Shown here: positions 30,515-36,564 of the stretch, piece after piece
Numbering within the stretch: position 1 is the first letter of the stretch
Layout: every line of letters begins with the position of its first letter
DNA from: Methanocella arvoryzae MRE50
GTDB lineage: Archaea > Halobacteriota > Methanocellia > Methanocellales > Methanocellaceae
Assembly: GCF_000063445.1 (NCBI RefSeq)
Contig: NC_009464.1
Coordinates: 434,001-498,000 of the forward strand
Reading direction: 5' to 3'
DNA: 64,000 bases
Position numbers and translations under genes: made by a program
Notes under the pieces: generated by a model
Database searches by the model: none
Seen by the model: only the letters and a program-made list of their open reading frames with translations
What the model was told of the DNA's origin: nothing

Positions 30515-30539
30515 GCATAGCATTAAAATTATGCTATGC
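30515..30539 (-). terminator. Terminator hairpin of the 1126-aa poly-Ala protein gene
   Basis: GCATAGCAT and ATGCTATGC pair perfectly (9 bp) around TAAAATT. On the minus strand the stem is followed by TTTTCTTTTTGG. It begins about 20 nt after the stop codon at 30559. Confidence 0.7.
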
Positions 30540-30558: not shown

Positions 30559-33500
30559 TTAACGTCTTCTCAGGCTGCCCGGAGACCCGCCCGATATGGA
30601 TGGGGCTCCGCCGCTCACTCTTGACGGAGAGCTTATTCTACTCGCCGGCTGGGTAAATTTGGCTCCTCCTCCGCCGGACGGAGCACTAATCCTCTGAGCA
30701 GGCTGAGTAAACTGGGCTCCACCACTCGGCCCGGATGGAGTAGTAATCCTCTGAGCAGGCTGCGCAAACTGAGCCCCGCCACCTCTCGTAGATGGTGTGC
30801 TAATACGCTGGGGTTGCGCAAACTGGGCACCGCCACTTGGCCCGGTGGGTGTACTGATCCTCTGAGCAGGCTGAGTAAACTGAGCCCCGCCACCCATGCT
30901 CGAAGGTGTGCTTACCCTCTGAGGCTGGGCGATCTGAGGAGCGCCACCAGTTCCTGATGGCGTACTAATCCTCTGAGCAGGCTGCGCAAACTGAGCCCCT
31001 CCACCACTCGGGGCACTAATGCGCCCGCCGGAAGGTTGTGTGAATTGAGCTCCGCCACCGCCGGAAGGCCCAGTGATCCTCTGAGCAGGCTGCTGGGCAA
31101 ACTGAGCCCCGCCACTTGGCCCGGTGGGTGTACTGATCCTCTGAGCAGGCTGAGTAAACTGAGCCCCGCCACCCATGCTCGAAGGTGTGCTTACCCTCTG
31201 AGGCTGGGCGATCTGAGGAGCGCCACCAGTTCCTGATGGCGTACTAATCCTCTGAGCAGGCTGCGCAAACTGAGCCCCTCCACCACTCGGGGCACTAATG
31301 CGCCCGCCGGAAGGTTGTGTGAATTGAGCTCCGCCACCGCCGGAAGGCCCAGTGATCCTCTGAGCAGGCTGCTGGGCAAACTGAGCCCCGCCAGCACCCG
31401 CCGGTGTAGTCCCCCTGCCAGTAACTGGCTGAGCGATCTGTTGAGCGCCACCAGCACCGGACGGAGTACTAATCCTCTGAGCAGGCTGCTGGGCAAACTG
31501 CTGACCCGCACCAGAAGGCGTCGTTACTCTACCAGCACCCGGTTCAGCGATCTGAGCTCCTCCGGGCCCGGTCGGAGCAGTTACTCTGCCTGCAGGTCCG
31601 GTAATCTGCTGACCAGCCGGCCCGCCCGGAGTAGTAATCCTACCGGTGCCCGGTTCTGTAACAGGGGCACCTCCGACGCCGGAAGGCGTTGTAATCCTGC
31701 CGGCAGGTCCGGTAATCTGCTGACCTCCAGGCCCGCCCGGAGTGGTCACTCTGCCTTCAGGTCCGGTAACCTGTGCACCGCCAGGACCACCAGGCGTAGT
31801 TACTCTTCCGGCAGGTCCAGTAATCTGCTGACCTCCAGGCCCGCCTGGAGTTGTAATCCGGCCAGTGCCAGGCTCACTGATCTGTGCACCCGGCCCGCCC
31901 GGCCCTGTCGGAGTGGTTACTCTGCCGCCGGGTCCGGCAATCTGCCCGCCCGGACCCACGCCGGTCTTGATGGTTTCAGGCAGCCTGCTGGCGAACTGCT
32001 GCGGAGCAATGCCCTGCTGCTTTGCCTGCTGGGCTGCCCGTAGTACTTTTTGTACTCCCGGGCTGCTTCCGAAGTCTTTCGACTGGGACAGGGTCTGGGC
32101 TGCCCGTAGCGGATCACCACCGCTGGCAGCAGCCGCAGCAGCCGCAGCAGCAGCCGCAGCGGCACCAGGATCGTTTCCTGCAGCAGATGCGGCAGCAGCC
32201 GCAGCTGAAGCAGCGGATGAGACGCCGGGGCCTCCGCCGGCGGCAGACGCGGCAGCACTGGCCGCAGCCGCGGCATTACCGCCACTGGCCGCAGCAGCAG
32301 CAGCCGCAGCCGCAGCAGCCGCACCACCTGCGCCAGCACCACCGGCAGCAGCCGCACTAGCCGCAGCAGCAGCCGCAGCCGCACCACCAGCACCACCTAC
32401 AGCAGAGCTCGCCGCTGCAGCAGCTGCCGCAGCATCACCACCACCCGCGGCAGCCGCAGCGGCAGCCGCAGCAGCCGCTACACCGCCCGGTGCTACGCCG
32501 GCGGATGCGGCCGCACTGGCCGCACTGGCCACACTGGATGCTCCACCGATGCCGCCTAATGCAGACGCTGCTGCACTGGCCGCAGCAGCCGCATTACCGC
32601 CACCGGCAGCAGCCGCAGTTGCTGCAGCAGCAGCCGCAGCCGCGCCCGGGCCGCCCGCAGCAGCCGCACTAGCTGCAGCAGCAGCCGCAGACGCACCACC
32701 GGCACCGCCTAAGGCAGAGGCCGTTGCGCTGGCCGCAGCAGCCGCATTACCGCCACCGGCAGCAGCGGCCGATGCTGCTGCTACAGCTGCCGCTGCTCCT
32801 GGCCCTGCGCCGTTGGACGCCGCAGCAGCCGCAGCAGCCGCAGCCGCAGACGCCCCACTTGCACCTCCTGATGCAGCAGCCGCAGCAGCCGCAGCAGAAG
32901 CAACATTACCGCCAGTGGCCGCAGCAGCAGCCGCAGCAGCCGCAGCAGCGACACCGCCAGGCCCGGCCCCGCTTGAAGCTGCAGCAGCAGCCGCAGCAGC
33001 AGCCGCGCCGCCACCACCGGCCACCGCAGATGCCACAGCAGAAGCTGCAGCCGCTGCGTTACCGCCGAAAGCTGCAGCAGATGCCGCAGCAGCAGCCACG
33101 GCAAACTGGTTCACGAAGATCGATGGCGTGAATATATTGGTCACAAACGCGCTCGGAAACGCGAAAGCAAACGGTACCGGCGCAAACACGATCGGTATAG
33201 GCACCACGTACGGTACGAAGATCGGCGGCGTAATCAGGATCGGGCTGGCAAAGACGATCGGACCCAGTACTGAGTACGGGGTGCTGAAGAACGTGCCGAA
33301 AACACTGAACATCTGCGGGAACGCCACCATGTAAATACGGTAAGACATCGCGTCGATGACGAGTTGCGTCGGCTGCTGCATCTGGAAAACCCGTGCGCTT
33401 CCGTCAGGCGTGATCATACGGATGGCGTTCACGTTGAAAATGGTCTGCAAGCCCTGGGTCCCGGCGTAATTCATGTTCAGCTCTAAGACCATGATGCTCG

Positions 33501-33939
33501 GATCGACCCTGAGCACGTTGTAGATCTGATTACTGTTGACGTAGCCTGCCGATCCGACCGCAGTGGGAAGATAAGACAAATCAATCTGCATCGTGTTCTG
33601 AGACGGGTCAGCAACGCCCATGATAGGCGTCTTCAGCGCGTAAGCCACAGCCTGGCCCGACGCAGGGCTCGAAATGGTAAAACCGACCACCTGGAAATAC
33701 AGCTGGCTGCCCTGTTGCCGGACAGGCTGGATAGCGAGACTTAAAACGTTTTCACCGGTAGAAAAGCCTTGCAGGCCTTCGAGGCCCTGGATAGTTAATC
33801 CACCGTACTGCCCTGCCCCGGCGTAAGTGCCGGAGTAGACGGGCTGACTATGAGCTATACCCGTAAACTGGGTAGCACATAAAACCGTGATAAGGACGCA
33901 TAATACAGAAGTTATACTTATGCATCTTCGTTTATTCAA
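30559..33939 (-). CDS. Secreted silk-like poly-Ala/Gly repeat protein (1126 aa)
   Basis: Order of parts: signal peptide 1-32 (LCVLITVLCATQFTGIAHS), then a beta-rich, Pro-rich and hydrophobic N-domain 33-280 (VVPIPIVFAPVPFAFAFPSAF). Next is an Ala/Gly block region about 281-610 with runs of 5-12 Ala broken by GG, GGN, GPG or GAGG. Then comes a linker about 610-665 (GDPLRAAQTLSQSKDFGSSPGVQKVL...), and a tail 665-1126 of imperfect repeats around QPAQRISTPSGxGGAQF. The chain ends GSLRRR. There is no Cys after the signal peptide, few charges in the Ala region, and low complexity throughout. The layout resembles spidroins. Start is TTG 33939 behind GGGGGTGGAG. It is paralogous to 34263-36512. A fibre-forming sheath or extracellular matrix role is inference. 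Confidence 0.85.
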   Translation of the reverse strand: MNKRRCISITSVLCVLITVLCATQFTGIAHSQPVYSGTYAGAGQYGGLTIQGLEGLQGFSTGENVLSLAIQPVRQQGSQLYFQVVGFTISSPASGQAVAYALKTPIMGVADPSQNTMQIDLSYLPTAVGSAGYVNSNQIYNVLRVDPSIMVLELNMNYAGTQGLQTIFNVNAIRMITPDGSARVFQMQQPTQLVIDAMSYRIYMVAFPQMFSVFGTFFSTPYSVLGPIVFASPILITPPIFVPYVVPIPIVFAPVPFAFAFPSAFVTNIFTPSIFVNQFAVAAAAASAAAFGGNAAAAASAVASAVAGGGGAAAAAAAAAASSGAGPGGVAAAAAAAAAAATGGNVASAAAAAAAASGGASGASAAAAAAAAAASNGAGPGAAAAVAAASAAAAGGGNAAAAASATASALGGAGGASAAAAAASAAAAGGPGAAAAAAAATAAAAGGGNAAAAASAAASALGGIGGASSVASAASAAASAGVAPGGVAAAAAAAAAAAGGGDAAAAAAAASSAVGGAGGAAAAAAAASAAAAGGAGAGGAAAAAAAAAAAASGGNAAAAASAAASAAGGGPGVSSAASAAAAAASAAGNDPGAAAAAAAAAAAAASGGDPLRAAQTLSQSKDFGSSPGVQKVLRAAQQAKQQGIAPQQFASRLPETIKTGVGPGGQIAGPGGRVTTPTGPGGPGAQISEPGTGRITTPGGPGGQQITGPAGRVTTPGGPGGAQVTGPEGRVTTPGGPGGQQITGPAGRITTPSGVGGAPVTEPGTGRITTPGGPAGQQITGPAGRVTAPTGPGGAQIAEPGAGRVTTPSGAGQQFAQQPAQRISTPSGAGGAQQIAQPVTGRGTTPAGAGGAQFAQQPAQRITGPSGGGGAQFTQPSGGRISAPSGGGAQFAQPAQRISTPSGTGGAPQIAQPQRVSTPSSMGGGAQFTQPAQRISTPTGPSGGAQFAQQPAQRITGPSGGGGAQFTQPSGGRISAPSGGGAQFAQPAQRISTPSGTGGAPQIAQPQRVSTPSSMGGGAQFTQPAQRISTPTGPSGGAQFAQPQRISTPSTRGGGAQFAQPAQRITTPSGPSGGAQFTQPAQRISAPSGGGGAKFTQPASRISSPSRVSGGAPSISGGSPGSLRRR
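30831..31388 (-). repeat. Perfect 279-bp tandem duplication inside the silk-like gene
   Basis: 30831-31109 and 31110-31388 read identical base for base as far as I can follow by eye, and identity continues about 5 nt further. Each copy codes for 93 residues of the QPAQRIS-type tail. The surrounding repeats are diverged, so this copy is recent. Confidence 0.85.
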
Positions 33940-33983
33940 GACTCCACCCCCATGTTGACACTGAACTGAAAAACGAATTGTAA

Positions 33984-33998
33984 CGATAATACGTTTAA
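33984..33998 (-). promoter_or_regulatory. Shared promoter element, silk-like gene 1
   Basis: On the minus strand TTAAACGTATTATCG, 45 nt before the TTG start. The paralogous gene has TTAAAAATATTATCG at 36565-36579 (13 of 15 identical). It probably contains the TATA box. Confidence 0.5.
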
Positions 33999-34207
33999 GG
34001 AGTTCTATAGCGAATTTTGATGAAATTTATCCAATTATATGGTATTATTGAGTAATGTGGCGATATATAGCCCTGTTTTCGATTATAACAGTAAATTAAC
34101 GGCCGTATGCTAAATGCGGTCATATTAATAATGATTAGTATTGATCTATATGCGATGAATATAGAGTCGATAACCAGATGCACAAGACTATTCCTTATGA
34201 CACATGT

Positions 34208-34241
34208 AAAAAAGAAAGGCTGGCGGAAGAAGTCCCGCCAG
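34208..34241 (-). terminator. Terminator hairpin of the 749-aa poly-Ala protein gene
   Basis: CTGGCGG (34220-34226) and CCGCCAG (34235-34241) pair perfectly. On the minus strand the stem is followed by CCTTTCTTTTTT. It lies 22 nt after the stop at 34263. Confidence 0.75.
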
Positions 34242-34262
34242 TGGATTTTTCATCGTACAACA

Positions 34263-36512
34263 CTAGCGTCTCAGGCCACCCATGCCGCCCATGCCGCCCA
34301 TGCCACTTAAACCGGCGGGCTGGCTAAACTGCCTGACGGGCTGCTGGAAGGCCTGCTGCCCCATCGGCTGCTGGAAAGCCTGCTGCCCCATCGGCCGTAA
34401 GGGCTGCTGGAAAGCCTGCTGCTGCAGAGGCTGCTGAGTAAACTGTCCGGCAGGCTGCTGGAAAGCCTGTTGACCCAGTGGCTGCTGGAAAGTTTGTTGC
34501 TGTCCGAGAGGCCTCGTGGGCTGCTGCAAACCCTGTTGCTGACCCACAGGCGGGAGCTGCTGTTGTCCAGCCTGTTGCTGGAGAGGCTGTTTAGCAATCT
34601 GCTGACCCGTAGGCTGTTGCTGCAGAAGCTGCTGACCTGGCTGCTGACCCGCCTGAGTTCCAGAAGGCATCTGACCAGGAGCCTGAGTACCCGGAGCCTG
34701 AGATCCTGTCGGAGCCTGAGTACCCGGAGCCTGAGTACCCGCAGGCTGCTGACCCGCCTGAGTACCCGGAGCCTGAGTACCCGGAGCCTGAGTACCCGGA
34801 GCCTGAGTACCCGGAGCCTGAGTACCCGGAGCCTGAGTACCCGGAGCCTGAGTACCCGCAGGCTGCTGACCCATCTGAGTACCCGGAGCCTGAGTACCCG
34901 GAGCCTGAGTACCCGCAGGCTGCTGACCCGCCTGAGTACCCGCAGGCTGCTGACCCATCTGAGTACCCGCAGGCTGCTGACCCGCCTGAGTTCCTGTCGG
35001 AGCTCCGGTCGTAGTTTTCAGCGTGTCGGATAACCGGGTTCCGAGCTGCTGGCCAGTGATACCCTGCTGTTTCAGCTGCTGAGTCGTCTGTAATACATTC
35101 TTGACGCCCGGGCTATCGGCGAACTGCTTATTTTGAGCCACATTCTGCGCTGCCAGAGTGGGATCACCACCAGTAGCGCCGGCCGCAGCAGCAGCCGCAG
35201 CAGCCGCAGCAGCACCAGGATCATTTCCTGCAGCCGTAGCCGCAGCAGCAGCCGCAGCAGCAGCCGCGGAACCACCGGCACCACCGGCAGCAGCAGCCGA
35301 AGCCGCAGCAGCCGCAGCAGACTGTGAGCCGCCACCAGCTGCAACCGCAGCAGCAGCCGCAGCAGCAGCCGCACCGCCAACACCGGCGCCACCTGATGCA
35401 GCAGCCGCAGCAGCAGCCGCAGCAGCCGCACCACCGGGACCGCCCGCAGCAGCAGCCGAAGCTGCAGCAGCAGCCGCGGAGGCACTACCGCCGCCAGCAG
35501 ACACCGCAGCAGCAGCCGCAGCAGCAGCCGCACCACCTACACCGGCACCACCAGTGGCCGCAGCAGCAGCCGCAGCAGCAGCCGCAGCACCGCCTGGAGC
35601 GCCGCTGGCAGCAGCCGCAGCAGCCGCAGCAGCAGCCGCAGAGCTACCGCCACCCGCGGAAACTGCAGCAGCAGCCGCAGCAGCAGCCGCACCACCGGCA
35701 CCTGCGCCACCGGCAGCTGCAGCAGCAGCAGCAGCCGCAGCAGCAGAACCGGATCCACCCGCAGCCGCAGCAGCAGCCGCGACAGCGGAGGCACTACCTC
35801 CACCCGAAGCAACCGCAGCAGCAGCCGCAGCAGCAGCCGCACCACCGGCACCGCCAGCAGCAGCCGCAGCAGCAGCCGCAGCAGCAGCAGAACCGCCTGC
35901 GCCACCGGCAGCAGCCGCAGCAGCAGCCGCAGCAGCAGCCTCACCAGTGCCGCCACCGGCAGACACCGCAGCAGCAGCCGCAGCAGCAGCCGCACCACCT
36001 ACACCGGCACCACCATTAGCCGCAGCAGCAGCCGCAGCAGCCGCAGCAGCACCGCCAGGCCCTACTGCAGCAGCGGATGCAGCCGCAGCAGCAGCCGCAG
36101 CGTCACCGCCACCGGCAGACACCGCAGCAGCAGCCGCAGCAGCAGCCACACCACCGGCACCGGCACCGCCGGCAGCAGCAGCCGCAGCCGCAGCAGCAGC
36201 CGCACCACCGGCACCGCCGGCAGCAGCAGCCGCAGCAGCCGCAGCAGCCGCAGCATCTTGACCGGCAGCCGCAGCAGCAGCCGCAGCAGCAGCCGCAGCC
36301 GCATCACCAGAGCTGGCTCCGCCTGCCGCTGCAGCGGATGATACAGCGCTGGAGATCGCGGCCGGGTCTAAAGTACCGGCCCCGGTTGCGCCAGCAACCG
36401 CAGTGCCAGTACCCTGTCCAAAAACAATACCTGTGAACTGCGTCGAGCATAATAGCATGACTGTAACAAAAATGCCTAACGCAGCTAATATATTACTACA
36501 TCTTCGTCTCAA
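34263..36512 (-). CDS. Secreted silk-like poly-Ala/Gly repeat protein (749 aa)
   Basis: Signal peptide 1-33 (IFVTVMLLCSTQFTGIVFG), then from about 40 to 448 some thirteen blocks of 8-13 Ala, each closed by GGAGG, GGAGAGG, VSAGGGD or similar. These are followed by the linker module (GDPTLAAQNVAQNKQFADSPGVKNVL..., about 450-505), a GTQAP/AGQQPAG array (505-625) and a Gln-rich end (FQQPLGQQA units) finishing GGMGGLRR. Unlike its paralogue it lacks the N-terminal globular domain. There is no Cys in the mature chain. The start is TTG 36512 after GGGGTGGAG, the same start context as the paralogue. Antisense frames in this region are Pro/Ala or Gln/His repeats and are shadows. Composition suggests beta-sheet-forming poly-Ala as in silk. 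The role is unknown. Confidence 0.85.
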   Translation of the reverse strand: MRRRCSNILAALGIFVTVMLLCSTQFTGIVFGQGTGTAVAGATGAGTLDPAAISSAVSSAAAAGGASSGDAAAAAAAAAAAAAGQDAAAAAAAAAAAAGGAGGAAAAAAAAAAAGGAGAGGVAAAAAAAAVSAGGGDAAAAAAAASAAAVGPGGAAAAAAAAAAANGGAGVGGAAAAAAAAAVSAGGGTGEAAAAAAAAAAAGGAGGSAAAAAAAAAAAGGAGGAAAAAAAAAVASGGGSASAVAAAAAAAGGSGSAAAAAAAAAAAGGAGAGGAAAAAAAAAVSAGGGSSAAAAAAAAAAASGAPGGAAAAAAAAAAATGGAGVGGAAAAAAAAAVSAGGGSASAAAAAASAAAAGGPGGAAAAAAAAAAASGGAGVGGAAAAAAAAAVAAGGGSQSAAAAAASAAAAGGAGGSAAAAAAAAAATAAGNDPGAAAAAAAAAAAGATGGDPTLAAQNVAQNKQFADSPGVKNVLQTTQQLKQQGITGQQLGTRLSDTLKTTTGAPTGTQAGQQPAGTQMGQQPAGTQAGQQPAGTQAPGTQAPGTQMGQQPAGTQAPGTQAPGTQAPGTQAPGTQAPGTQAPGTQAGQQPAGTQAPGTQAPTGSQAPGTQAPGQMPSGTQAGQQPGQQLLQQQPTGQQIAKQPLQQQAGQQQLPPVGQQQGLQQPTRPLGQQQTFQQPLGQQAFQQPAGQFTQQPLQQQAFQQPLRPMGQQAFQQPMGQQAFQQPVRQFSQPAGLSGMGGMGGMGGLRR
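34757..34861 (-). repeat. 15-bp tandem array coding for GTQAP
   Basis: Six perfect copies of a 15-nt unit (plus strand CCTGAGTACCCGGAG) from 34757 to 34846, then a seventh ending in GCAG. Looser copies continue on both sides between about 34680 and 34990. A likely site of length variation. Confidence 0.85.
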
Positions 36513-36564
36513 GTCTCCACCCCTATTTCGATGTAAAACTTACAGATAATGACATATGAGATGT

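Follow-up and report, generated by a model that had tools for sequence, protein, structure and literature searches.

Alanine-block proteins of Methanocella arvoryzae belong to an undescribed modular family of predicted-secreted proteins in Methanocellales

Does an archaeon encode proteins built like silk? The question is raised by two neighbouring genes of Methanocella arvoryzae MRE50, which an earlier note had read as a pair of exported poly-alanine/glycine proteins that might assemble into extracellular fibres or a sheath. The genes lie within the window, a 64-kb stretch of DNA corresponding to C1:434001-498000 of the single-contig, 3,179,916-base genome, in which mcrA is present. Both open reading frames were found at exactly the positions the note had given them, and each is preceded by a Shine-Dalgarno-like site:

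30559..33939, minus strand: P0001, 1126 aa, TTG start; predicted-exported protein with signal peptide, beta-rich head, hydrophobic Pro-rich linker, Ala/Gly array, three-helix mini-domain, basic Gly/Pro/Thr/Gln tail and C-terminal RRR
34263..36512, minus strand: P0002, 749 aa, TTG start; predicted-exported protein with signal peptide, Ala/Gly array, mini-domain, Gln/Pro/Gly/Thr tail and C-terminal RR, without the head domain
33942..33950, minus strand: Shine-Dalgarno-like site of P0001, GGGGTGGAG, just 5' of the TTG start (sequence)
36515..36523, minus strand: Shine-Dalgarno-like site of P0002, GGGGTGGAG, just 5' of the TTG start (sequence)
33844..33939, minus strand: P0001 signal peptide, about residues 1-32, with CATQFTGI, a stretch conserved with P0002 (read by eye)
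36414..36512, minus strand: P0002 signal peptide, about residues 1-33, with an RRR n-region and CSTQFTGI (read by eye)
34220..34241, minus strand: terminator-like hairpin and T run 3' of P0002 (consensus match only)
30515..30539, minus strand: terminator-like hairpin and T run 3' of P0001 (consensus match only)

A basic n-region and a hydrophobic core are clear by eye in both N-termini, in agreement with the signal peptides proposed earlier, and sequence comparison revealed a CSTQFTGI-like stretch in P0002 and in the orthologues from a sister Methanocella MAG. As the note had also stated, the chains contain no Cys past the signal peptide and end in arginines (LRRR in P0001, LRR in P0002). Since each gene has its own terminator-like hairpin at its 3' side, P0001 and P0002 probably represent separate transcription units; these hairpins are consensus matches only, and the scan returned about as many of them as in shuffled sequences. 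Coding on the opposite strand was considered as well, as long Ala/Pro reading frames (31865-33334 and 35158-36261, plus strand) run opposite both arrays. We rejected this possibility because the Shine-Dalgarno-like sites, the signal peptides, the head homology and the mini-domain are all in the minus frame; the antisense frames arise because a GCN repeat again yields GCN codons when the complementary strand is read in a shifted frame, and they are a likely source of spurious gene calls in annotation.

The most conspicuous part of both proteins is the central Ala/Gly region, earlier put at 330-400 residues and measured here as follows:

32125..33096, minus strand: P0001 Ala/Gly block array, residues 282-605, 324 aa; 19 blocks mostly of 12-14 residues, turns of 3-7 (composition, block count; 159-nt period by TRF)
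35181..36335, minus strand: P0002 Ala/Gly block array, residues 60-444, 385 aa; 22 blocks of 11-14 residues (composition, block count)

Alanine, glycine and serine make up 62%, 18% and 10% of the P0001 array, and alanine and glycine 66% and 20% of that of P0002. The earlier description of Ala runs of 5-13 residues with Gly separators holds insofar as pure Ala runs are long (4-13 residues in either array), but the variable length it implied does not. When Ser/Val/Thr/Leu/Ile substitutions are allowed inside the blocks, block length becomes nearly constant: 11-14 residues in 89% of 99 blocks from three species (Ser/Val/Thr substitutions counted within blocks), with a mode of 12 and a mean of 12.2-12.6 in P0001 and P0002. 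The Gly turns between blocks are mostly 3-8 residues long and in P0002 often cycle through GGAGG, GGAGVGG and GGGS. Superimposed on this pattern is a super-period, detected by autocorrelation, of 53 residues in P0002 and of both 53 and 104 residues in P0001. The arrays are hydrophobic, nearly uncharged and Cys-free, and a single Phe in P0001 is their only aromatic residue. Genome-wide counts show that the pattern is not a matter of chance. Exact (GCN)8 occurs 92 times per strand in the whole 3.18-Mb genome and its reversed-pattern control not once; among the listed plus-strand places, all but one (C1:692742) are in P0001 or P0002. The peptide Ala8-X-Gly-Gly has 14 occurrences in the M. arvoryzae genome and 23 in the sister MAG; the other 392 sampled Halobacteriota genomes together have one.

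Arrays of this kind might simply be a product of DNA-level processes, that is, of neutral or nearly neutral expansion of GC-rich GCTGCTGCG-like repeats tolerated in a secreted protein. Periods of 9, 12 and 51-54 nt reported by TRF in the arrays speak for such a process, as does the skew of Ala codons in both genes to GCT (46-61% compared with 15% in the other genes of the window). In P0002 the T-ending preference extends to four-fold codons generally: GCT 61%, GGT 64% and ACT 67%, against 15%, 10% and 21% in other window genes. Nevertheless, block length and block order have been kept across species despite diverged synonymous sites. In an in-frame alignment with the sister MAG orthologues, amino acid identity in the array is 79-85%, higher than in the head (70%), the tail (32-43%) or the mini-domain (31-45%), while synonymous positions are diverged to saturated and the frame is kept. 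For the P0001 array pN is 0.14 and pS 0.73; for the 5' part of the P0002 array the values are 0.10 and 0.46. Because alignment of poly-Ala is ambiguous and inflates identity, we ran three controls. First, identity between P0002 and its MAG orthologue in the pattern of non-Ala/Ala positions is 0.60, whereas 30 shuffles of block and turn order averaged 0.42 and never exceeded 0.52. Second, when neutral mutation was simulated to the same divergence, the Ala content fell to 0.36 (observed, 0.65) and all but 21 of 200 copies acquired a stop. Third, third-base matches between super-repeat copies (0.33 in P0001 against 0.32 expected by composition; 0.52 against 0.43 in P0002) are at or slightly above the expectation from composition, and the array is thus old. 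The earlier note had named a broken frame, with Ala runs varying out of frame in relatives, as grounds for abandoning its reading; in the sister MAG both frame and block length are kept. Taken together, the pN/pS values, shuffles, simulation and third bases rule out chance or slippage as the origin of the arrays and indicate that their pattern is old and held by protein-level selection within the genus, and we consider the neutral explanation very improbable. A separate feature is a two-copy 279-nt tandem duplication in the P0001 tail (30818-31393), which at 99% identity is a recent in-frame expansion, unlike the old Ala array.

How widespread are these proteins? Outside the arrays, the following modules could be delimited:

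33265..33804, minus strand: P0001 head domain, about residues 46-225; Methanocellales-specific, mostly beta (alignment of 10 homologues; AlphaFold pLDDT ~55-80, nine strands)
33100..33264, minus strand: P0001 hydrophobic Pro-rich linker ending in F-x-P-x-I-x-x-N-Q-F-A (conserved in Ala/Gly relatives; similar P-rich linkers in several other relatives)
31966..32124, minus strand: P0001 mini-domain, about residues 606-658 (profile matches confined to Ala/Gly members; helices with pLDDT ~73-83)
35013..35180, minus strand: P0002 mini-domain, about residues 445-500; three predicted helices, pLDDT ~74-87 (profile search, AlphaFold)
30562..31965, minus strand: P0001 tail, residues 659-1126; Arg recurs regularly within repeats some 15-20 residues long; 30 K/R and 4 D/E; tandem repeats including a 279-nt unit at 99%
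34266..35012, minus strand: P0002 low-complexity Gln/Pro/Gly/Thr tail, residues 501-749; no acidic residues; 15-, 30- and 57-nt tandem repeats

Homologues of the P0001 head are present in all four Methanocellales genomes sampled. Every family member examined whose start is intact opens with a sequence resembling a signal peptide. P0001 is related to the family over about 200 residues of the head; the headless P0002 is joined to it through the signal peptide, array and mini-domain. A search of the kind that the earlier note had proposed, run over 394 Halobacteriota genomes, was productive within the order, where it revealed arrays in the sister MAG and a shortened one in a third genome (G001), and yielded no convincing match elsewhere among them. 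In those genomes the 10-member head profile found nothing beyond Methanocellales save a stop-interrupted fragment, a weak match in one genome (G389) with four stops within it, which we take as chance. No close head-family copy besides P0001 was detected by this profile in the M. arvoryzae genome itself. Four distant, shorter secreted relatives of the head were seen in Methanocellales (L030 1153-2337, L034 1351-2172, L035 1030-1797 and L036 1429-2139; head-profile E 2e-8 to 8e-5). Strict peptide patterns were also run against 84,980 GTDB species representatives, using the narrower pattern set A2, as the first profile, A1, was too diverse. Only contigs of the MAG Methanocella sp. PtaU1.Bin125 matched in a scan from which records of the organism's own or very near genomes may be left out. 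Neither protein matched any Pfam family up to E 1 or any NCBIfam family, and a PDB sequence search returned nothing apart from a designed Ala-rich helix protein and one weak match to a hemolysin.

Synteny is retained at the Ala/Gly locus in the relatives that carry it. There is one gene, with a short and degenerate array, in G001, and there are three consecutive genes on MAG contig C177, the third of which is truncated where the contig stops. The 5' portion of this third gene is very probably on contig C32, which breaks off within an Ala array and has the genes that flank the locus on the P0002 side. The MAG assembly is broken inside the Ala array (L049 end, L018 end), and short-read genomes will therefore tend to split or miss such genes. 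Paralogue pairs are known from two species, M. arvoryzae and the sister MAG. Another genome (G003) has head proteins and neither an Ala array nor the mini-domain. Family members outside the Ala/Gly branch share the signal peptide, the head, a low-complexity module and a mostly basic, acid-poor tail, but lack Ala blocks and the mini-domain and have a Pro/Thr, GYG or Lys/Ser/Thr module behind the same head instead. The GYG-rich segments (L016 10288-12708, L017 13839-17381 and the L014/L015 junction) resemble glycine-tyrosine-rich structural proteins. At a locus conserved in three Methanocellales genomes (L014 5929-9707, L016 12829-18026, L020 5155-9541), a head-family gene with a Pro/Thr tail is paired with a gene whose product begins KxVPDTSxIIxGxIT, by eye a PIN-type ATPase. 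Judged by these comparisons, the family is specific to Methanocellales, undescribed and modular, consisting of a predicted signal peptide, a beta-rich head, a Pro-rich hydrophobic linker, an interchangeable low-complexity module and an acid-poor basic tail.

Two of these modules deserve a closer look. All six array-bearing members that extend far enough contain the mini-domain, which was seen in nothing else sampled among the 394 Halobacteriota genomes. The tails agree with the low-complexity Gln/Pro/Gly/Thr composition noticed earlier (Gly/Pro/Thr/Gln in P0001 residues 659-1126), and the last 250 residues of 12 family members carry a net charge of +4 to +48, with Asp and Glu almost absent in most. 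A module order of head, array, mini-domain and basic tail, as in P0001, is what might be expected if the array were a monomeric stalk or spacer in which Ala helices, as a rigid rod or solenoid, keep the head at a distance from a surface-fixed tail without self-assembly. The presence of the same head on quite different spacers (Pro/Thr, GYG, Lys/Ser/Thr), as if only length mattered, points in the same direction. However, P0002 has an array and a mini-domain yet no head to present, and the arrays are more conserved than the heads, with block order kept beyond the needs of a spacer. We therefore regard a stalk as a credible but rather unlikely solution.

Whether the arrays are helical or form sheets bears directly on the silk question. 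In the AlphaFold model of P0001, computed with four sequences, the head is beta-rich and mostly at pLDDT 55-80, the mini-domain reaches 73-83, and helices cover nearly the whole array at pLDDT 34-67, a result to be read in light of the tendency of AlphaFold to call poly-Ala helical. For P0002 alone (single sequence) the three-helix mini-domain is confident and the array is mostly coil at pLDDT ~30-40. Foldseek against the PDB gave no match for the P0001 model at E <= 0.001 and none for the P0002 model at E <= 10; accordingly, neither head nor mini-domain matched a solved structure. The non-Ala residues within blocks offer an independent hint, as they favour i,i+4 spacing (z 4.0; 4.4 on unique blocks, both inflated because blocks are related by descent), whereas spacing 2 is neutral and spacings 3 and 5 are depleted, the depletion at 3 not being expected from a helix. 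Asp or Asn stands just before a block 20 times and just after one 8 times, in the manner of an N-cap. On balance, model and sequence lean towards short helices rather than beta-sheet fibres for the array monomer; this is a lean and not proof, given the inflated z-score and the depletion at spacing 3. The designed Ala-rich helical repeat protein C2HR4_8r (PDB 8erw, E 0.0078) has a similar composition of short Ala-rich helices, but the match is one of low complexity only and does not imply homology.

The likeness to silk itself has two sides. Spider major ampullate spidroins combine poly-Ala with GGX/GPGXX segments between folded terminal regions (PMC5000749), and the spidroin organisation that the earlier note saw in P0001 and P0002 is at most partly there, with Ala blocks and some GPG/GGX turns present. 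In other respects the likeness is not supported: spidroin N- and C-terminal domains are absent (Pfam, up to E 1), blocks are ~12 residues and spacers 3-8, Ala (62-66%) far exceeds Gly (18-20%), and the substitution spacing is of the helix type. A closer counterpart is the fibroin heavy chain of saturniid silkworms (Samia, Antheraea), a secreted protein with Ala12-13 blocks alternating with Gly-rich segments, helical in the gland and converted to beta-sheet on spinning (PMC6832210). The same alternation, with blocks of the same length, is found here in proteins whose export is predicted, although the Gly segments are short turns, aromatics are almost lacking, and head, mini-domain and tail are all different. 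Homology to fibroin heavy chain was not detected (Pfam and NCBIfam for both proteins, PDB sequence search for P0001). The resemblance is, in terms of sequence design, closer to wild-silkworm than to spider silk.

Could P0001 and P0002 nevertheless form a true silk-like system, in which helical Ala blocks would convert to stacked poly-Ala beta-sheets, the Gly turns and tails would supply the amorphous phase, and the product would be a sheath or insoluble fibres outside the cell? The block length shared with saturniid fibroin, hydrophobic, nearly uncharged and Cys-free arrays, folded terminal domains flanking the P0001 array and paired paralogues in two species all speak for it. Yet spacers of 3-8 residues leave little amorphous phase, substitutions follow a helical and not an i,i+2 spacing, aromatics are confined to the one Phe of the P0001 array, and spidroin domains are missing. 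We know of no spinning or shear step in a single cell. Nor does codon use indicate mass production: codon adaptation of the two genes, 0.45 and 0.47, is the lowest among 28 window genes compared (others 0.48-0.77) and gives no hint of a very abundant product, but for repeats this measure is unreliable, and it was computed with a crude reference set. We thus consider a silk-like system unlikely. The fuller proposal, in which the two proteins constitute the first known archaeal silk, convergent with the saturniid design, and their helical Ala12 blocks co-assemble into a sheath or extracellular fibres stabilised by beta-sheets, seems to us more doubtful still. In the open-access literature searched we found no report of an archaeal silk-like protein, in line with the earlier note, and no expression data for either gene.

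A soluble Ala-rich helical protein might also serve some other surface chemistry, such as ice-binding-like, mineral or humic binding. Type I antifreeze proteins are indeed built on a scaffold of Ala-rich short helices, and the basic tails would suit such a role. As a regular Thr-bearing 11-residue repeat is absent and M. arvoryzae is moderately thermophilic, we find this hardly probable at all.

The best explanation we can offer, one we would stop just short of calling probable, assigns P0001 and P0002 a structural role as secreted matrix or surface-coat proteins of a modular Methanocellales family, cohesive and built of Ala-helix hairpins. Both proteins would be exported through Sec. Each block of about 12 residues would form a short alpha-helix closed by Gly turns, and the resulting helical hairpins would line up in a regular array with small-residue faces, capped by the mini-domain. 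Through Ala-Ala contacts, arrays of P0001 and P0002 could then pack together and surround the cell with a cohesive layer or fibre resistant to proteases. The beta head of P0001 may bind a partner in the matrix or on the cell surface, and the basic tail, poor in acidic residues, may keep the protein on polyanionic surfaces such as S-layer glycans, extracellular DNA or, in paddy soil, humic matter or clay. The arrays might, like eri silk, convert from alpha to beta at a later stage, but this explanation does not need such a step. Surface attachment and self-association are what we infer from the sequences. A structural role is favoured by the export signals, block regularity, selection, the hints of helix, the restriction of the mini-domain to array members, the basic tails and the structural-looking modules of relatives. 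Against it stand the low AlphaFold confidence of the array, the inflated i,i+4 signal, low codon adaptation, the lack of a match to a solved structure and the lack of any obvious surface-assembly gene among the neighbours in the 64-kb window.

One of the two proteins has in all likelihood been seen before. In a survey of 102 archaeal proteomes (NAR 2019), the longest low-complexity region was 390 aa, or 52%, of UniProt Q0W1C5 from M. arvoryzae (PMC6821194). Q0W1C5 is very probably P0002, because 390 aa at 52% corresponds to ~750 aa, compared with 749 for P0002, in the same species. The section of the survey used here lists it only as an uncharacterised protein, without family, modules, paralogue or conservation, and the open-access literature searched yielded no other paper naming it or giving it a function. 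What is very probably the longest low-complexity array of that survey is thus no slippage artefact: it is regular and old, and selection acts on it at the protein level.

Overall, our comparisons reveal a real, conserved and previously undescribed family of archaeal proteins with predicted export. With them, convergent poly-Ala block design gains a defined example outside animals, and compact Ala-helix or silk-like material might be obtained from them. For the ecologically important rice-field methanogens, they add a new lineage-specific family of predicted-secreted modular proteins.
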